The notes below the pieces were generated by a model. The model had not been told where the DNA came from, did no database searches, and worked only from the letters and a program-made list of their open reading frames with translations. 64,000 nucleotides of DNA from Roseospira navarrensis (lineage in GTDB: Bacteria > Pseudomonadota > Alphaproteobacteria > Rhodospirillales > Rhodospirillaceae), in the NCBI RefSeq assembly GCF_009601025.1, contig NZ_WIVE01000014.1, positions 1 to 64,000 of the forward strand, given 5' to 3'. Positions within the stretch are counted from its first letter, which is position 1; the number at the start of each line of letters is the position of its first letter. Position numbers and translations under genes: made by a program. This document shows positions 18,479-30,340 of this stretch, piece by piece.

Positions 18479-19066
18479 ATGGCAACGACGTTTGCAAGCG
18501 TCGGAGCGGCGGACGGCTATCTGACGGGGAAGTGCCTGGTGGCCATGCCGGGCATGAGCGACCCGCGCTTCGTGCGGGCCGTCATCTACATCTGCGCCCA
18601 CACCGAAGAGGGCGCCATGGGCCTCGTGGTGAACCGCGCCATTCCCGACTTCAGCTTCGTGGATCTGCTGGAGCAGCTCAGCATCCCGGCGACACCCCGG
18701 TGCGAGCAGATTCAGGTCCAGTTCGGCGGCCCGGTGGAGAGCCAGCGCGGCTTTGTGCTGCATTCGGCAGACTATATCCATGAGGGCACCCTGGTGGTGG
18801 ACGACGCGGTGGCCCTGACCGCCACCCTGGAGGTGCTGCGCGACATCGCCGTGGGCACGGGACCGTCCCGCACCCTGATGGCGCTGGGCTACGCCGGCTG
18901 GAGCGCCGGGCAGTTGGACGACGAACTGCGCCGCAACGTGTGGCTGACGGTGGAGTCCGACCCCAACGTGGTCTTCGGCCTGGACCTGGACGCCAAGTAT
19001 GACCGGGCGCTGCGCAGCCTGGGCGTCGATCCCTCGCTGTTGTCCAGCGAGGGCGGCCACGCCTGA
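18479..19066 (+). CDS. YqgE/AlgH family protein
   Basis: This 195-residue protein has the full YqgE fold: the N-terminal LTGKCLVAMPGMSDPRF and the HTEEGAMGLVVNR block, then the later ALGYAGWSAGQLDDELRRN motif. YqgE/AlgH is widespread and conserved, linked in some species to alginate control, but its biochemical activity is unknown. The start follows GGAGG at a spacing of about 11. Its stop overlaps the xerC start by one base (TGATG), so the two are co-translated. Confidence 0.92.
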   Translation: MATTFASVGAADGYLTGKCLVAMPGMSDPRFVRAVIYICAHTEEGAMGLVVNRAIPDFSFVDLLEQLSIPATPRCEQIQVQFGGPVESQRGFVLHSADYIHEGTLVVDDAVALTATLEVLRDIAVGTGPSRTLMALGYAGWSAGQLDDELRRNVWLTVESDPNVVFGLDLDAKYDRALRSLGVDPSLLSSEGGHA

Positions 19067-20088
19067 TGACCGGCGCCGCCCCGGACCCCGGTCCCGCCGC
19101 ACAGGAGACCGCGCCCCCCGTGCCCGGGCCCGCGGTGGCCCTGGCCGCCGATGCCGGCCTGACCGCGGTGGTGACCCGCTGGCGGATCTGGCTGTGGGCC
19201 GAGCGCCGCGTCAGCCGCCACACCCTCGACGCCTATGTGCGGGACCTGGCGGGCTTCCTGGCCTTCCTGACGGACCATCTGGGCGGCACGCCGGGCCTGT
19301 CCGATCTGGCCACGCTGGATGCCGCCGATCTGCGCGCCTGGCTGGCGTGGCGCGGGGGCGAGGGCGTGGGGCGCACCGCGCAGGCGCGCGGGCTGTCCAC
19401 GCTGCGGGGCTTCTTCCGCTGGCTCGACCGCGAGGGCCTCGCGCACAATCCCGCGCTGGCGCAGGTGCGGGGGCCGCGCCCGAAGCCGCCGGTGCCCAAG
19501 GCGCTGGCGGAGGACGAGGCGGCCGAGGCGGTCAAGGCCGTCCGTGATCTTGAGGACGAGGGCTGGGTCGGCCGGCGGGATCTGGCGCTGGTGATGCTGC
19601 TGTACGGGGCCGGCCTGCGTCTGGGCGAGGCCCTGGCCCTGAACCAGCGCGATGCCCCGGACGGTCCGGCCATGACCGTGACCGGCAAGGGCCGCAAGCA
19701 GCGCGTGGTGCCCGTGCTGCCGGTGGTGCAGGACGCCGTGGCGGAGTACCGCGCGGCCTGTCCCCTGGCGCTGGGGCCGGACGATCCGCTGTTCGTGGGG
19801 GTGCGGGGCGCGCGGCTCAATCCCGGCGTGGTGCAGCGTCAGGTCCGACGGTTGCGCGAGGCCCTGGGGCTGCCGGAAACGGCGACGCCGCACGCCCTGC
19901 GGCACAGTTTCGCCACCCACCTGCTGGGGCGCGGCGGTGATCTGCGCACCATCCAGGAGCTTCTGGGGCACGCCTCGCTGTCCACCACCCAGCGCTATAC
20001 GGCTGTGGATGTGGCGCGGCTGAAGCGCATGCACGCCGACGCCCACCCGCGCGCGCGGGTGAGCGATCAGGACAAAGAGGGTGCTTGA
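19066..20088 (+). CDS. xerC: Site-specific tyrosine recombinase XerC
   Basis: This 340-residue recombinase resolves chromosome dimers at dif together with XerD. An N-terminal SAM-like core-binding domain (about 20-120) is followed by the catalytic domain with Arg 185 (GAGLRLGEAL), the HALRHSF box (His 276, Arg 279), the second His in LLGHASLSTTQ and the nucleophile Tyr 311. The length and N-terminal region fit XerC of alphaproteobacteria better than XerD, though the two are close. No integron or phage genes are nearby, so it is the housekeeping enzyme. Confidence 0.87.
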   Translation: MTGAAPDPGPAAQETAPPVPGPAVALAADAGLTAVVTRWRIWLWAERRVSRHTLDAYVRDLAGFLAFLTDHLGGTPGLSDLATLDAADLRAWLAWRGGEGVGRTAQARGLSTLRGFFRWLDREGLAHNPALAQVRGPRPKPPVPKALAEDEAAEAVKAVRDLEDEGWVGRRDLALVMLLYGAGLRLGEALALNQRDAPDGPAMTVTGKGRKQRVVPVLPVVQDAVAEYRAACPLALGPDDPLFVGVRGARLNPGVVQRQVRRLREALGLPETATPHALRHSFATHLLGRGGDLRTIQELLGHASLSTTQRYTAVDVARLKRMHADAHPRARVSDQDKEGA

Positions 20089-22154: not shown

Positions 22155-22781
22155 TCAGGGTGTGGGATCGGTCTCGACGAAGCCCGGGACCTCGGGGCCC
22201 CGCCGGGCCACCAGGGCTTCCAGACGGGGGTGTCGGCCCGGCTCCACCAGATGGGGCAGCACGATGCGCAGGAACGGCAGCGCCACCAGGGCGGTGAGAT
22301 CGGCCTGGGTCGGACGCATGCTGCCCAGCAGCCAGCCGCCCTCGGCATCGGGGCGTTCGGCCTCGGCGGCGGCGAGGCCGTCGGCGACCTGGCGCTCGTT
22401 GCCCTCGACCGCCGGGGCATACACCATCTCGGCCGGTCGTCGTGTGCGCTCATAATACGCCACCACGGCCTTGTCCATGGCTCCCGTCAACAGCGCGCAG
22501 TGCCGCAGGACCCGCCGGCGGTTCGCGCCGGACGGCGGGGTCAGGGCGCGCTCGGGGCCCACGAGTTCGTCCAGGTGGTCCAGGATGGCGCTGCTTTCGA
22601 TCAGCACCGTGCCGTCATCGAGCGTCACGGCGGGGACCCGGCCCAGGGGATTGACGCGGCGAATCGCGTCCATGTGGGTGGCCGTGCCCAGTTCCCGCCG
22701 CTCGAACGGCAGGCCGAGCACGGACAGCGACAGCACCACGCGGCGGGTGAAGGGCGACAGATTGCGGCCGATGACGATCAC
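22155..22781 (-). CDS. Glutathione S-transferase family protein
   Basis: This 208-residue protein has an N-terminal thioredoxin-like domain (SPFTRRVVLSLSVLGLPFE, then NPLGRVPAVTLDDG with the cis-Pro, and ESSAILDHLDE for glutathione gamma-Glu binding) and an all-helical C-terminal domain. The GTG at 22781 is preferred: AGGAG lies 8 bases before it, while the first GTG of the frame at 22790 directly abuts that ribosome site. The substrate is unknown. Confidence 0.85.
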   Translation of the reverse strand: MIVIGRNLSPFTRRVVLSLSVLGLPFERRELGTATHMDAIRRVNPLGRVPAVTLDDGTVLIESSAILDHLDELVGPERALTPPSGANRRRVLRHCALLTGAMDKAVVAYYERTRRPAEMVYAPAVEGNERQVADGLAAAEAERPDAEGGWLLGSMRPTQADLTALVALPFLRIVLPHLVEPGRHPRLEALVARRGPEVPGFVETDPTP

Positions 22782-22854
22782 GAGGCACACTCCTGACGTG
22801 TGGTCGGCGCGGCGGGGTCACCGTACTGCGGTGTCCGCGCGGATGCCGGAAAGA

Positions 22855-22872
22855 TTGGCACGGCCTATGCAA
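22855..22872 (+). promoter_or_regulatory. Sigma-54-type promoter
   Basis: TTGGCACGGCCTATGCAA matches the -24/-12 pattern TGGCACG-N4-TTGC with one mismatch (ATGC), and keeps the essential GG-N10-GC spacing (GG at 22857-22858, GC at 22869-22870). The predicted start is near 22882. No protein gene follows for 700 bp; a structured RNA and a terminator do. Confidence 0.6.
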
Positions 22873-22881
22873 GGCTCGCGA

Positions 22882-23078
22882 CAGGCAGGCAACGCGTCCC
22901 CTCCCGCAGGCCTGTCTGGGGGGCTCCAAAGCGACTTTCCCGTGTCCGCCGTCGCGAAGGACCCCATTCCGTCTCTCCTCCGGCCCCGGGTCCGCTTCCC
23001 TGGCCACGAGGGAGACATGGGAACGGGGAACGGTGCTGGCTCTTTGCTCCCTCTCAAAGCCACACCGTTCCCCTTTTT
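22882..23078 (+). ncRNA. Candidate sigma-54-dependent small RNA, about 197 nt
   Basis: The interval runs from the predicted sigma-54 start to the end of an intrinsic terminator. It can fold into consecutive hairpins: GACAGGC/GCCTGTC (22880-22886 with 22910-22916), GCGAC/GTCGC (22931-22935 with 22951-22955), GGACCC/GGGTCC (22959-22964 with 22988-22993), TCCC/GGGA just after, and the terminator stem. The first hairpin begins at the predicted 5' end. No open frame with a ribosome site fits inside. The direction is opposite to the GST gene. I do not recognise a named RNA family. Confidence 0.5.
23025..23078 (+). terminator. Strong intrinsic terminator
   Basis: GGGGAACGGTG (23025-23035) pairs perfectly with CACCGTTCCCC (23063-23073). 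An inner GGC-TTTG/CAAA-GCC stem extends it, and TTTTT (23074-23078) follows. No annotated gene on this strand precedes it for almost 3 kb, which supports a transcript starting in the gap. Confidence 0.8.
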
Positions 23079-23619
23079 CTATTGGCCGCCCGGCCCCGCC
23101 CGCCGCGACCTCTGGCAGGCCCTCCTGTCCCCGACGACAAAGCCCCTTCAGACAGACGTGCCGACGTCGCCCGCCCGCCCGCGCCGACGGGTGGTCAGGC
23201 GACTCGGCCGCACCTTGGCGCGCTTGACGGGCGCGCGCAAGCGTCGGGCTTCCGTCATTCTGCATCGCCTGCATCAGGAACGCATGCAAAATGAAAATCT
23301 GAAAGTCAAAATGACACGCAATTCGAGGCGCTGTGGGGCATACCGCGCGATCGCCGCGCCGCCGAGTCCGGTGGAGGCCCTCCGGGCACCGAAGGTTTGC
23401 GCAACCCAGAGTTTATCGGCGGTGGGCCATCGGCGTGGGGCGACCCTGCCTCCGCCCGCGTGGGCCGGACGCGAGAAAAACGCGGCCGACATGCGCCGAA
23501 CGCACGTGATCGCCGGATGACGGGCAGGTATGCTGGTGGAGCATCCCAAGTGGTGACCCGCCCCGCGCCGCGAGGGTCGGGCGGGCACGTATGCCGACAG
23601 AACATCGGAGGACCCGCTC

Positions 23620-25416
23620 ATGAGCACCTATACGGCGCCCCTCGACGACATGCAGTTCGCGCTGGACCTTGCGGGCCTTCCCGAGATCGCGGGCCTTCCC
23701 GGGTTCGAGGACGCCACCCCCGACCTGATCGCCGCCGTGCTGGAGGAGGCCGGCAAGTTCGGCGCCGGCGTGCTGGCCCCGATCAACGAGTCCGGGGACC
23801 GCCAGGGCTGCCGGCTGGATCCGGACGGCACCGTGCATCTGCCCGACGGCGCCATCGAGGCCTACGCCCAGTTCCTGGAGGCGGGCTGGAACAGCCTGCC
23901 GTTCAAGCCGGAGATCGGCGGCCAGGGCCTGCCGGGCGTGGTCGGCGTCGCCGTCAGCGAGATCTGGCAGGCCGCCAACATGGCCTGGGCGCTGTGCCCG
24001 CTGCTGACCACCGGCGCCATCGAGGCCCTGCAGGCCCACGGCACCGACGAGCAGAAGGCCATCTACCTGCCGAAGCTGGTCTCCGGCGAGTGGACCGGCA
24101 CCATGAACCTGACCGAGAGTCAGGCCGGCTCCGACCTGTCGGCGCTGCGCTGCAAGGCCGAGCCCGCGCCCGACCTGGGCGAGGGCGTGTACCGCATCAC
24201 CGGCCAGAAGATCTTCATCACCCACGGCGACCACGCGTTGGCCGAGAACATCTGTCACCTGGTGCTGGCGCGGCTGCCCGATGCGCCTCCGGGCGTCAAG
24301 GGCATCTCGCTGTTCCTGGTGCCGAAGATTCTGGTCAACCCCGACGGTTCGCTGGGCGGGAAGAACGACGTCAAGGCGGTCTCGCTGGAACACAAGCTGG
24401 GCATCCACGGCAGTCCGACCTGCGTGATGGCTTATGGCGACGAGGGCGGCGCCATCGGCACCCTGATCGGTGCGCCGCATCAGGGGCTCGGCTGCATGTT
24501 CACCATGATGAACAACGCCCGCCTGAACATCGGCCTGCAGGGCGTGGGCATCGCCGAGCGCGCCTATCAGCACGCCGCCGCCTTCGCCAAGGACCGGGTG
24601 CAGGGCGTGGATGTCACCGATCCCAAATCGGGCCGGACCTCGATCGTGCATCACCCGGACGTGCGGCGCATGCTGATGACCATGCGCGCCAAGACCGAGG
24701 CCGCGCGGGCGCTGACGTACTATGCCGCCGCCTGCATGGACCTGGCCCACGCGCACCCGGACGACACCCGGCGGGAGTCGGCGCATCATCGGCTCGATTT
24801 GCTCACCCCGGTGGTGAAGGCCTGGAGCACGGAAGTGGGCTTCGAGGTCAGCGATCTCGGTGTGCAGGTCCACGGCGGGACGGGGTACATCGAGGAAACC
24901 GGCGCGGCCCAGCATCTGCGGGACGCCCGCATCTCCCGTATCTACGAGGGCACCAACGGCATCCAGGCCATCGACCTGGTCAGCCGCAAGGTGCTGCGCG
25001 ACAAGGGGCACGAGGTTCACGCGCTGATCGCGGAAATGCGCGAGACCCACGCCGCGCTGGCGGATGCGCCCAACGAACTGGCCGCCATGGCGCCGCGCTT
25101 CGGCATCGTGATCGACGACCTGGAGGCGACCACCACCTGGCTGCTGGAGCACGCCATCCCCGAGGACGCCCAGGCGGCCAGCACGCCCTATGCCCTGCTG
25201 TTCGGCATCGCCGCCGGCGGCTGGCTGATGATGAAAGGCGCGCTGGAGGCGCAGCGGCGGCTTGAGGCCGGTGAGGGCAACCCGACCGTCCTGAAGTCCA
25301 AGCTGGCCACGGCGCGCTTCTTCGCCGATGCCCAGATGCCGTTCACCGGGGCGCACCGGGCGACCGCCATGGCCGGGCCGGACAGCCTGATGGCCATGGA
25401 GGAAGACTGGTTCTGA
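23620..25416 (+). CDS. Acyl-CoA dehydrogenase
   Basis: This 598-residue flavoenzyme is of the long bacterial acyl-CoA dehydrogenase type with an extra C-terminal domain (about 470-598), like FadE-related and DmdC proteins. The substrate and FAD regions are typical: NLTESQAGSDLSALRCKAEP, ITGQKIFITHGDH, LGIHGSPTC and the later QVHGGTGYIEETGAAQHLRD, RISRIYEGTNGIQAIDL. It would oxidise an acyl-CoA to the 2-enoyl-CoA and hand electrons to ETF. The chain length or a methylmercaptopropionyl-CoA substrate cannot be decided here. The start follows GGAGG. It is a single-gene unit; the protein ends EEDWF. Confidence 0.88.
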   Translation: MSTYTAPLDDMQFALDLAGLPEIAGLPGFEDATPDLIAAVLEEAGKFGAGVLAPINESGDRQGCRLDPDGTVHLPDGAIEAYAQFLEAGWNSLPFKPEIGGQGLPGVVGVAVSEIWQAANMAWALCPLLTTGAIEALQAHGTDEQKAIYLPKLVSGEWTGTMNLTESQAGSDLSALRCKAEPAPDLGEGVYRITGQKIFITHGDHALAENICHLVLARLPDAPPGVKGISLFLVPKILVNPDGSLGGKNDVKAVSLEHKLGIHGSPTCVMAYGDEGGAIGTLIGAPHQGLGCMFTMMNNARLNIGLQGVGIAERAYQHAAAFAKDRVQGVDVTDPKSGRTSIVHHPDVRRMLMTMRAKTEAARALTYYAAACMDLAHAHPDDTRRESAHHRLDLLTPVVKAWSTEVGFEVSDLGVQVHGGTGYIEETGAAQHLRDARISRIYEGTNGIQAIDLVSRKVLRDKGHEVHALIAEMRETHAALADAPNELAAMAPRFGIVIDDLEATTTWLLEHAIPEDAQAASTPYALLFGIAAGGWLMMKGALEAQRRLEAGEGNPTVLKSKLATARFFADAQMPFTGAHRATAMAGPDSLMAMEEDWF

Positions 25417-26896: not shown

Positions 26897-28852
26897 TCAG
26901 GCCGTGCTTGGTTCGGCAAGGGGATCGCCACTGCCGCCGCCGCTGGGGGCGTGACGCGGGGTCGGGGGCGAGGCGGCGGGTTCGGTGCGCTCCTGTCCGG
27001 CCGGGACGATCCGGTTGCGGCCGGCCCGCTTGGCCTCGTACAGCGCCTCGTCGGCGGCCTTCAGCGCGTGGTCGAACAGGGCGTGGCGCGACAGCGCGGT
27101 GACCCCCAGGCTGGCCGTGACCGTCAGGGCGGCGTTCGGCGCCCCCGCGACCTCGAAAGGCGCGCCGTTGATGGTGTGCAGCATGCGCCGCGCCGAGACC
27201 ATGCCCTGCTGCAGCGTGGCGTGGGAGACGATGACGGCGAATTCCTCGCCGCCCAGACGCGCGATCACGTCGGAATCCCGCACCGCCAGGGACAGCCGCC
27301 GGGCCAGTTCGACCAGCACGGCGTCGCCCACGTCGTGGCCGTGGGTGTCGTTGATGGCCTTGAAGTGGTCCAGGTCGAGCATGACCAGCACCGCATCGCC
27401 GCCGTAGCGGTTCAGGTCCGCCATCACCATCGCGGCGGCCTGCATGAAGGCGCGGCGGTTCTTCAGGTTGGTCAGCGGGTCGTGCAGGGCGAGGCGCGCC
27501 GCTTCGTCCAGCAGTCGCCGGCTGCGGTCGGCCTCGCGGACGAAGCGCTCGCGGACCTGATTGTAGAACGAGGCGATGATGGCGGCATCGGTCTCGGCGT
27601 CCACCTCCACCGGGGTCGAGAAGTCGCCCTTCGAGCCCTGGGCGGAGAGCTGGTTGAGCAGGTCCAGCATGGCCGTGCCCGCGCCGTGCTCGGCCACGTT
27701 CAGGCCGATCCGCTCGTCCTCGGGCGAGACCCGGTAGCGCGCCCAGGCGTTGGTGACCCCCATGAAGACCCAGGCGACCACGAACGCGGCCCCGGTGATG
27801 CACACGGCGCCCAGGGCCTGGACGGCGACCCATCCGGTGCGCCCGCCGATGCCCTCGGGGATGTGCTCGGGGGTCGCGAACAGGGGCAGCATGACCGTGC
27901 CGATCACGCCGGCGAACAGGTGGACGGGGATCGCCCCCACCGGATCGTCGATGCGGGCGCGCTCCAGCAGGCCCAGGCCCCAGACCGCGACCAGCGCGCC
28001 CACGGCGCCGATGGCCATGGCGCCCAGCGGCTGGACGACGGAGCAGCCGGCGGTGATCGCCACCAGCCCGCCCAGCATGCCGGTCAGGATCTCGGTGGCC
28101 TTGGGCTTGCGGCCCAGCGCCGCCGCCATGGCCAGGATCGAGACGATGCCGACCGCCGCCCCCACGCCCGTGTTGACCAGGATCAGCGGGACCTGATGGT
28201 TGAAGTCGGTGGCCGCGCCGCTGTTGAAGCCGAACCAGCCGAACATGAGCAGGAACGCCCCCAGGGCCGAGACGGCGAGGTTGTCCCCCTCGATGTAGGA
28301 CGCCGAGCCCTCGCTCTCGAACCGTCCCAGGCGGGGCCCGATCCGCAGCACCGCCGCCAGCGCGATGGCCCCGCCCACGCCGTGCACGACCGTGCTGCCG
28401 GCGAAGTCCAGGAACCCCAGTTGCAGAAGCCATCCCCCCTCGGCCCAGGCCCAGTGCCCGGTGATCGGGTACACCACGACGCTCATGCAGATGGCCAGCA
28501 GCAGATAGCCGCGAAAGCTGGTGCGCTCCGCCACCGCGCCCGACACGATCGTGATCGCCGTGCCGCAGAACATGGCCTGGAACAACGCCATCAAGAGGTC
28601 GGGCGGACTGCCGTCGATCACCACGGACGGGGCAAAGCCGATCAACCCGAACCAACTGCTGCCGAACATCAGGGCGTTGCCGACCAGCAGGAAGAAAAAG
28701 ATGGTGGTGCCCAGGTCGGCCACGTTCTTGATGGCCACGTTGACCGAGTTCTTCCGGCGCACCATGCCGGCTTCATAGCAGGCAAACCCGGCCTGCATCA
28801 GCAGGACGAGGAATGTGGACAGCGCAAGCCAAATCATATGCTGGTCGGACAT
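26897..28852 (-). CDS. Ammonium transporter fused to a GGDEF diguanylate cyclase
   Basis: This 651-residue protein joins an Amt/Rh ammonium channel (about residues 1-400, eleven membrane segments) to a cytoplasmic GGDEF domain (about 455-615). The channel keeps both pore histidines, in STVVHGVGGAIAL and IPVHLFAGVIG, so it may still bind or conduct ammonium. The cyclase has GGEEF at 534-538 and an RDSD inhibitory site exactly five residues before it, so c-di-GMP synthesis and feedback inhibition are both expected. A helical linker (about 400-455) connects them. This looks like an ammonium sensor that sets c-di-GMP levels. No glnK lies beside it. A TTGACA-like -35 box is at 28919-28924. Confidence 0.9.
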   Translation of the reverse strand: MSDQHMIWLALSTFLVLLMQAGFACYEAGMVRRKNSVNVAIKNVADLGTTIFFFLLVGNALMFGSSWFGLIGFAPSVVIDGSPPDLLMALFQAMFCGTAITIVSGAVAERTSFRGYLLLAICMSVVVYPITGHWAWAEGGWLLQLGFLDFAGSTVVHGVGGAIALAAVLRIGPRLGRFESEGSASYIEGDNLAVSALGAFLLMFGWFGFNSGAATDFNHQVPLILVNTGVGAAVGIVSILAMAAALGRKPKATEILTGMLGGLVAITAGCSVVQPLGAMAIGAVGALVAVWGLGLLERARIDDPVGAIPVHLFAGVIGTVMLPLFATPEHIPEGIGGRTGWVAVQALGAVCITGAAFVVAWVFMGVTNAWARYRVSPEDERIGLNVAEHGAGTAMLDLLNQLSAQGSKGDFSTPVEVDAETDAAIIASFYNQVRERFVREADRSRRLLDEAARLALHDPLTNLKNRRAFMQAAAMVMADLNRYGGDAVLVMLDLDHFKAINDTHGHDVGDAVLVELARRLSLAVRDSDVIARLGGEEFAVIVSHATLQQGMVSARRMLHTINGAPFEVAGAPNAALTVTASLGVTALSRHALFDHALKAADEALYEAKRAGRNRIVPAGQERTEPAASPPTPRHAPSGGGSGDPLAEPSTA

Positions 28853-29116: not shown

Positions 29117-30340
29117 TCAGGGCCCGGACGGTCGGGCCGGGCCAAGCCGGGCGGCCGGCAGCCGCACGGCGGCGGTCGTCCCCCGCCCCGGCACGCTGTG
29201 CAGGTCGAACACCCCGCCCAGGGCGGCCACCAGGGTCTTGACGATGGTCAGGCCGACGCCGGCGGTGGCCTGCGGGTCCGGCCGATGGCCGCCGGCGGAC
29301 GACGACGGGTCGAGGATGCGCCGCACCCGATCGCCCGAAGTGGCCCCGCCGCCGCTGTCGCTGACCCGGATCAGCAGACGGTCGCGGTCCAGCGCGGTGG
29401 TCAGGTCCACGCGTCCCCCGCTGCCGGTGAAGGCGATGGCGTTGGCCAGCAGGTTGTGCAGGATGTGCCGGAGCGCGCCCTCGTCCACGTGCAGCGGGCG
29501 GCCCGCCAGGGCCTCGTCCTCGTGCAGGCCCAGCGTGACCGAGGCCGCCGTGGCGCTGGGCAGCGCGGTCTGGATCATGTCGGCGCACAGGGTGTGAAGG
29601 TCCACCCAGGTCTCGCCGTCGCCGTGGCCCGGTTCGGTCTGCCGCGCCACGTCCAGCACCACGCCGAAGACGGATTCCATATGTCTGCCTGCCTTCACGA
29701 TGCTCTCGGCGTAGTCGCGCTGGGTTTCGTTCAGGGGACCGAAGACGCCCATGATCAGGGCCTCCGCATAGCCGATCACGTTGTTGAGCGGGGTGCGGAG
29801 CTGGTGGCTCATGTTGACCAGGAAGCGGTCCTTCTCGGCGTTGGCGTGATCGGACCGTTCGGCCGTGCGCTCCAGAGCGGCCATCCGGGCGCGGTCGGCG
29901 GTGATGTCCACGATCAGCCCGCTCACGCCCGTGACGGCCCCTGTCGCCGGGTCGCGCAGGGCGGCCTTGATGAAGCGGGCGTGGCCGCGGGCGCCGCCCC
30001 CGGCGCCGCCACCCGCCGCCGCGTACCGGATCGGGGCATCGTAGACGCGGGGGGAGTGGTCCCCGGCATCGGCATCCCGCACCAGGGCGCGGTCGTGCTC
30101 CTCGTGCGGGGCCGCCGCCGCCGGTCCCATGACCTGGGCCGCCGTCCGGCCCAGCAGGTCCGCCGTCGTGGAGCCGAGCACCCGGGTCGCGAGAAGGGTG
30201 TTGCAGTCCGTAAACCGAAGGTCCCGGTCCTTGACGAACGCGGGCACCCCCAGGCCCTCCATCAGGACGGCCCACTGAGAGACACCCCTGCCGCCGGGCA
30301 CGGCCTCTGGTTGACGCGGACGTTTGTCCCCATCCGTCAT
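29117..30340 (-). CDS. PAS-domain sensor histidine kinase
   Basis: This 407-residue protein lacks membrane segments, so it is a cytoplasmic sensor. A PAS domain (about residues 20-150, with a Gly/Ala-rich insert at 108-120) precedes HisKA with His 179 in NMSHQLRTPLNNVIGY and a HATPase domain with LLANAIAF and VSDSGGGATSG. The signal is unknown. It lies 264 bp upstream of the Amt-GGDEF gene on the same strand, and no response regulator is adjacent. The ATG at 30340 has AAGGGG upstream. Confidence 0.82.
   Translation of the reverse strand: MTDGDKRPRQPEAVPGGRGVSQWAVLMEGLGVPAFVKDRDLRFTDCNTLLATRVLGSTTADLLGRTAAQVMGPAAAAPHEEHDRALVRDADAGDHSPRVYDAPIRYAAAGGGAGGGARGHARFIKAALRDPATGAVTGVSGLIVDITADRARMAALERTAERSDHANAEKDRFLVNMSHQLRTPLNNVIGYAEALIMGVFGPLNETQRDYAESIVKAGRHMESVFGVVLDVARQTEPGHGDGETWVDLHTLCADMIQTALPSATAASVTLGLHEDEALAGRPLHVDEGALRHILHNLLANAIAFTGSGGRVDLTTALDRDRLLIRVSDSGGGATSGDRVRRILDPSSSAGGHRPDPQATAGVGLTIVKTLVAALGGVFDLHSVPGRGTTAAVRLPAARLGPARPSGP

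Follow-up and report, generated by a model that had tools for sequence, protein, structure and literature searches.

A conserved candidate sigma-54-dependent small RNA with C/U-rich loops in Roseospira and Rhodospira, and its possible control by a LuxO-type regulator

The window, by which the whole 64-kb stretch of Roseospira navarrensis DNA analyzed here is meant, contains a gene-free gap between a glutathione S-transferase-like gene (22155-22790, minus strand) and an acyl-CoA dehydrogenase gene (23620-25416, plus strand), both assigned through Pfam. In the preliminary description, a length of 838 bp was given for this gap; the gap itself is present and measures 829 bp by the open reading frame (ORF) calls, from the start of the former gene (22790) to that of the latter (23620). 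On the plus strand, it holds a sigma-54 -24/-12 promoter, TGGCACGGCCTATGC (22856-22870), followed by a candidate sRNA that extends from a predicted 5' end at 22882 to the end of a T-run at 23078. Elsewhere, the window encodes a tyrosine recombinase of the phage integrase family (19066-20088, plus strand).

The locus was compared across six genomes of Roseospira and Rhodospira, here termed the genus set: the window's own genome (4.43 Mb on 197 contigs), Roseospira marina DSM 15113, R. visakhapatnamensis JA131, Rhodospira trueperi ATCC 700224 and two Rhodospira metagenome-assembled genomes, G003 and G005, the latter being 88% complete and a sister of R. visakhapatnamensis. The promoter reads TGGCACG-N5-TGC from position 22856 and spans about -26 to -12 relative to the predicted RNA start; its GG-N10-GC spacing recurs in all six genomes, which bears out the strictly spaced element reported initially. 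TGGCACGGCCTATGC is the sole site with this spacing and at least 10 of 12 consensus matches on both strands of the 64-kb window. It scores 11 matches, and since sites of score 11 arise at a mean of 0.35 per shuffled window (20 shuffles), the site taken alone is suggestive and not proof. In a promoter-anchored comparison, however, the TGGCACG and TGC boxes are 100% identical in 6/6 genomes, while identity amounts to 23-30%, the chance level, in the 60 bases before them, in the 5-base spacer and in the 11 bases after them.

The predicted RNA of about 192 nt comprises four hairpins and ends in an 11-bp stem plus T-run. Hairpin 1 (22882-22918) presents the loop UCCCCUCC (22897-22904) on a covarying stem; hairpin 2 (22920-22965), with the loop UUUCCCGUGUCCGCC (22936-22950), is backed by fold, conservation and covariation; hairpin 3 (22971-23016) appears variable from its fold and the six-genome comparison; and the terminator-like hairpin (23025-23073), again backed by fold, conservation and covariation, displays TTGCTCCCTCTC at 23044-23055 and is followed by TTTTT at 23074-23078, all on the plus strand. 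Folding of 22882-23080 yields -97.5 kcal/mol with z = -4.5, a value equalled by none of 200 shuffles, so that the series of four hairpins originally described as starting at the predicted 5' end is upheld. The last hairpin reaches z = -6.7 with TTTTT directly after it and is not among the predictions of a terminator scan of the window. The 11-bp terminator stem with TTTTT is thus present in the window as first described, but the T-run is not conserved everywhere: what follows the terminal stem is GCCAGCC in R. trueperi and GCCTTCC in G003, which makes termination less certain in these two species. The loops (CCCCUCC, CCGUGUCC and UUGCUCCCUCUC in RNA letters) are C/U-rich, largely invariant and different from one another; they rank among the best-conserved parts of the molecule and are more constant than much of the stems. 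GUGUCC in the loop of hairpin 2 and the 12-nt terminal loop UUGCUCCCUCUC are invariant across the six genomes. All three forward frames across the RNA are open in the window, where long mechanical ORFs span it, as is common at this G+C; counted from the predicted 5' end, however, every frame meets a stop in at least one of the six genomes, and a coding sequence at the locus was ruled out on this ground. A search of the window against Rfam 15 returned no match at the gathering level, and thus none to the curated Qrr family model; the eight weak matches (E up to 10) all belong to microRNA families.

The sRNA locus is found in all five other genomes of the genus set with the same promoter and the same spacing. 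Hairpins 1, 2 and the terminal hairpin keep their place in the six genomes, and hairpin 3 is much shorter in R. visakhapatnamensis and G005. A covariance model for which four of these genomes supplied the sequences identifies exactly one match in each of the six. In the six-sequence alignment, which was fitted to this model and hence leans towards its structure, 91.6% of 190 cells are paired and 12 of 32 stem pairs have changed on both sides; none of 500 shuffles reaches the observed value for pairing or for two-sided change, and controls with slid partners give 39.5-50.0% paired. The homologue search with the covariance model covered the genomes of the family (n = 73), of which eight pass E 0.05; six of these are the genus set, and the two others (E about 0.04), inspected by eye, show no such promoter. 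Two simpler patterns were also applied. Promoter plus GTGTCC gave 47 matches versus 18 for the reversed control, with six in the genus set, 20 in a genus designated g104 and a remaining 21 that about equal the yield of the control. Promoter plus loop gave 29 stretches, five of them in Roseospira and Rhodospira; among the others, five were checked and none matched the covariance model. Conservation of promoter and hairpins in related genomes had been set beforehand as the check, and it was found in 6/6 genomes, with identical boxes and covarying stems, which lifts the element above chance. Together with the lack of an Rfam match, this conservation supports the initial description of a structured, sigma-54-dependent and undescribed sRNA, and, judged from sequence comparison, the element itself very probably represents a real sRNA family of Roseospira and Rhodospira.

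The surroundings of the sRNA bear on whether it is a separate transcript. The glutathione S-transferase-like gene also adjoins it in R. marina and R. visakhapatnamensis, and the acyl-CoA dehydrogenase gene in R. marina, G003 and R. trueperi; at least one of the two neighbors is retained in five genomes, the window's included, and the sixth locus lies on a 4.6-kb contig with neither. With the acyl-CoA dehydrogenase gene beside the sRNA on the same strand in 4/6 genomes, the RNA could be taken for the long leader of that mRNA. In the window, however, about 540 bp separate the RNA end from this gene and a strong terminator-like hairpin intervenes, and R. visakhapatnamensis possesses the RNA although no acyl-CoA dehydrogenase gene was found in the 13 kb around it. 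The distance and the persistence of the RNA without the gene make a leader role very improbable. As a separate observation, GGACACGGGACACGGGATG and near copies of it occur on 14 contigs of R. visakhapatnamensis, in seven cases no more than about 110 bases from the contig start, and constitute an unexplained repeat.

Sigma-54 promoters require an enhancer-binding activator protein, and six clear candidates are encoded by the window's genome: NifA, NtrC, NtrX, FlbD, a LuxO-type protein (608-610 bits) and an AtoC-like protein. The preliminary description had considered the sRNA to be perhaps nitrogen-linked and had pointed to an Amt-GGDEF protein nearby. This protein, an ammonium transporter fused to GGDEF, is indeed encoded at 26897-28852 on the minus strand, which also encodes a PAS-histidine kinase upstream of it (29117-30340), but closeness was not counted as evidence. 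An sRNA of the nitrogen-stress response, activated by NtrC or NifA in the manner of NrsZ of Pseudomonas, would be in keeping with the sigma-54 promoter and with the nitrogen regulators of the window's genome. For comparison, the genus's own NtrC-type sites were collected from its two main P-II genes (by our inference, probably glnB and glnK), which have sigma-54 promoters in 10 of 12 loci (L109-L117 and L120 among these). A matrix was derived from the TGC-N11-GC sites of nine of the 12 loci, which precede the promoter by about 110 or 145 nt; one further candidate, at L109 of the window's genome, was left out, and two loci are without a promoter. The matrix scores its own nine sites at 17.6-23.8 bits, and its best scores upstream of the six sRNAs are -6.3, -5.6, -2.9, -1.0, 6.1 and 11.3 bits. 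Weak NtrC-like sites therefore exist in R. visakhapatnamensis (11.3 bits, with 0.5% of shuffles as good) and R. trueperi (6.1 bits, 6%), but none of the six regions attains the scores of the genus's own sites and four lie under zero. Moreover, the NifA box TGT-N10-ACA is absent within 330 nt upstream in all six, and the -12 box is TGC at the sRNA versus TGA at the P-II genes. NtrC and NifA were rejected as main activators on the basis of the matrix and the box search, the suggested link to nitrogen was not supported, and nitrogen control of the sRNA is decidedly unlikely.

The LuxO-type protein offers another lead. It is encoded in 6/6 genomes of the genus set; across the order, 96 of 317 genomes have such a protein at E 1e-120, with every score under the 800 bits set as the curated Vibrio cut-off. 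G005 is without the genus-type LuxO and carries another LuxO-type protein. The recognition helix reads STIYRRI, the genus type, in the window's genome, R. marina and R. trueperi, and STIYRKR in R. visakhapatnamensis and G005; R. visakhapatnamensis has two LuxO-type proteins (L175, L179), with the helices STIYRKR and STIYRRI. In V. cholerae LuxO, K428 and L429 are named among the critical residues in a section of PMC11407668, and by our own equation they correspond to the recognition-helix positions that differ here. Upstream of the sRNAs, no LuxO site with up to three mismatches is present within 400 nt in any of the six genomes, and the TTGCA-N3-TGCAA sites at about 100 nt upstream that characterize Qrr genes are accordingly not found in the genus set. 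Downstream, the window contains two LuxO-like palindromes, ATGCAAAATGAAA (at 23284, with 2 mismatches) and AGTCAAAATGACA (at 23304, a variant motif), which may form a downstream enhancer at 23284-23316 (no strand assigned) or could instead be the operator of the next gene. Over the six genomes, the region from +220 to +620 of the promoter, picked post hoc after a match in it had been noticed, includes nine sites that differ from TTGCANNNTGCAA at no more than two positions, where shuffles average 1.25; none of 500 shuffles reaches nine, the highest being six. At the same threshold, there are none in the 400 nt upstream and none from +620 to +1020. At up to one mismatch, a single site is found downstream versus 0.10 expected, which 10% of shuffles reach and which is not significant. 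The enrichment thus concerns degenerate sites with two mismatches, 320-520 bp downstream, and is uneven over the genomes: the sisters R. visakhapatnamensis and G005 account for six of the nine, and G003 has none. In these two sisters, the sites depart least from the canonical motif and occupy the stretch from the sRNA to the stop of a putative convergent ORF, whose two versions share 54.7% identity over 86 aa; no other gene start was found beside this cluster. The variant palindrome TGTCANNNTGACA, a motif defined from the downstream region itself, is the only copy (up to one mismatch) in the 64, 14 and 12 kb around the sRNA of the window, R. marina and R. trueperi, respectively, where it could belong to the acyl-CoA dehydrogenase promoter. 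Around luxO of the genus, neither motif was found, apart from one TGTCA-type site inside the R. trueperi ORF as called.

These observations are open to the explanation that the same sRNA answers to a different activator, such as FlbD, NtrX, the AtoC-like protein or another, with the downstream palindromes serving the acyl-CoA dehydrogenase gene instead. Besides the LuxO type, NifA, NtrC, NtrX, FlbD and the AtoC-like protein are all available in this genome, the sRNAs have no LuxO site upstream, and the downstream region precedes the acyl-CoA dehydrogenase gene in 4/6 genomes. Nevertheless, the LuxO-like sites of R. visakhapatnamensis and G005 occupy the corresponding position, and no gene start was found alongside them; no convincing common palindrome is apparent in the 200 nt upstream of the six sRNAs; a dyad search there found its best dyads in 3/6, the same as in one shuffled set. 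Control by another activator is therefore possible but doubtful. The best reading, albeit unproven, is LuxO-type, Qrr-like control of the sRNA, to which we give about an even chance; read post hoc, a LuxO-type activator with changed specificity would act from downstream.

LuxO sites of the canonical type do accompany sigma-54 RNA candidates elsewhere in the order. In four other genera, sigma-54 promoters of sRNA candidates have TTGCA-N3-TGCAA with zero or one mismatch at -169 to -113. In g104, a LuxO-type protein is encoded in 29/29 genomes, and the 20 genomes that match the promoter-GTGTCC pattern harbor a sigma-54 RNA that is highly conserved and differs from the window's; in 6/6 loci examined, one to three LuxO sites with at most one mismatch are positioned at -169 to -123. 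This RNA is short (L068-L073, L191, L192), measuring about 106 nt up to and including the terminator stem, and judging by its sites it is apparently a LuxO-driven RNA outside the Vibrionaceae. Within the family of the window, G034 (L187) has TTGCAGGATGCAA, without mismatch, at -126 before a sigma-54 promoter and hairpin RNA; its sister G017 (L194) keeps the RNA with a weaker LuxO site (2 mismatches, -102). A similar unit in G020 (L222) includes a LuxO site with one mismatch at -137, which may be due to chance, since the pattern concerned gave 10 matches versus 6 in the reversed control. In another family, G045 (L169:1153-1432, L172) combines a sigma-54 promoter, two LuxO sites with one mismatch each and an RNA loop CUUCCUCCUCCCCCUU in a unit directly beyond luxO and convergent with it; in its sister G255, no sRNA of this type was found in the 6 kb around luxO. 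C/U-rich loops are also seen in the sRNA candidates of G034, G017, G020 and G045. The background of LuxO sites amounts to 4 (up to one mismatch) in 90 kb. In the family f21, a perfect TTGCAAAATGCAA precedes the first position matched by the LuxO model by about 85-120 bp at 6/9 luxO loci (L147, L152, L153, L154, L160, L164), an arrangement that suggests autoregulation. Two patterns joining LuxO site and promoter were searched. The first gave 10 matches versus 4 in the reversed control: three g104 RNAs, the G034 sRNA, two before ORFs (L185, L188) and four without a good -12 box; the second gave the 10 matches versus 6 mentioned for G020, with good -12 boxes in G034, G015 and G020. At L188 (G015) and L185 (G238), a LuxO site and a good sigma-54 promoter shortly precede an ORF, and these ORFs are possible protein targets of LuxO. 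When 30 further luxO loci and that of the window's genome were scanned for sigma-54 promoters under relaxed criteria, only L169 was convincing among the candidates viewed. The genus covariance model found no significant match in the RNAs of the sister genera (best E = 0.083, at one of them), so these RNAs are analogues at most, alike in design and not in alignable sequence.

As for function, the locus is best pictured as a stand-alone, trans-acting sRNA gene, one per genome in the genus set. The genus LuxO-type response regulator, bound at the degenerate palindromes 320-520 bp downstream, would be the candidate activator; in its phosphorylated form, it would drive RNA synthesis with sigma-54 polymerase, a Qrr-like switch that is on when LuxO is phosphorylated. 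Stiff covarying stems would then present the C/U-rich loops for pairing with G/A-rich translation-start regions: CCCCUCC and CUCCCUC are complementary to GGAGGGG and GAGGGAG, so that the sRNA probably pairs with ribosome-binding sites and may block translation of several mRNAs. Complements of loop 2 before ATG number 13, 20, 20, 26, 14 and 34 in the window's genome, R. marina, G005, G003, R. trueperi and R. visakhapatnamensis, respectively, a total of 127 versus 17 in the reversed control, an excess that composition may explain; among these matches, which were not examined one by one, no target was recognized as conserved in all six. The perfect complement of the terminator loop, AGAGGGAGCAA, does not occur in the six genomes outside the sRNA itself. 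An RNA that binds a protein, as a decoy for a regulator that recognizes C-rich loops, or binds another RNA instead of mRNAs would fit loops that are repeated, C/U-rich and better conserved than much of the stems, and it would fit the invariant 12-nt TTGCTCCCTCTC, the complement of whose neighborhood has no partner. Partial Shine-Dalgarno pairing, however, would not appear as a perfect 11-mer, and in rhizobia the predicted contact of NfeR1 with ntrB spans only 8 nt, according to the portion of PMC10746234 consulted; a decoy is hence rather improbable beside pairing with mRNAs. Taken jointly, and only as a tentative proposal that we consider somewhat less than evenly probable, photosynthetic and other Rhodospirillales may use a LuxO-sigma-54-sRNA switch with anti-Shine-Dalgarno RNAs unrelated to Qrr in sequence, and in Roseospira and Rhodospira the LuxO helix (STIYRRI vs STIYRKx) and its sites would have changed together, with the enhancer moved behind the sRNA gene.

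In the open-licence PMC literature, no report of LuxO in Thalassospira or of a small RNA in Roseospira was found, and in the excerpts that join LuxO, Qrr and Alphaproteobacteria, Qrr is mentioned for comparison only. Another paper, consulted in excerpts, describes a gene annotated as LuxO in Micavibrio; genes of this kind are therefore not new per se in the class. Whether or not LuxO is involved, a conserved sRNA that combines a sigma-54 promoter with three distinct C/U-rich loops would be a new regulator in purple bacteria.

CrcZ/CrcY and NrsZ of Pseudomonas are other sigma-54-dependent sRNAs and are driven by CbrB or NtrC; unlike them, the sRNA described here is without a consistent NtrC site. 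LuxO-driven sRNAs are the textbook core of Vibrio quorum sensing, and Qrr RNAs are defined by pairing, with Hfq, with the mRNA of a LuxR/HapR-type master regulator. The candidate resembles Qrr of the Vibrionaceae in the sigma-54 promoter of a stand-alone, multi-hairpin sRNA, the LuxO-type activator in the genome and the LuxO-like palindromes nearby. It differs in lacking an Rfam match, in being single-copy in the genus set, in not lying beside luxO in the window's genome and in its downstream, degenerate sites, whereas the LuxO consensus TTGCA-N3-TGCAA is placed at about -89 to -120 in Vibrio in the passages available from PMC11443567 and PMC3352281. With alpha-r14/NfeR1 of Alphaproteobacteria, it shares several hairpins, a conserved unpaired C-rich motif and diverging stems, and the three loops of NfeR1 are described as pairing with Shine-Dalgarno regions and silencing several mRNAs (PMC10746234, in part). 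However, the identical CCUCCUCCC repeats in three hairpin loops of alpha-r14 contrast with three differing loops here, none of which is CCUCCUCCC, and the NfeR1 promoter is sigma-70, LsrB-activated and NtrC-repressed instead of sigma-54. SisA-D (alpha-R8) of Caulobacter display a likewise C/U-rich single-stranded core, UUUCCUCCCU, in the part of PMC12559287 consulted, but in a different architecture, and sigma54/RpoN is not mentioned in the main text of that paper. The sRNA may work like Qrr or alpha-r14 RNAs, yet it departs from both in defining features that were tested. If its circuit is the same in kind as that of Vibrio, this circuit would be far older than Vibrio or would have been reinvented around LuxO in another class, with the output RNA replaced.
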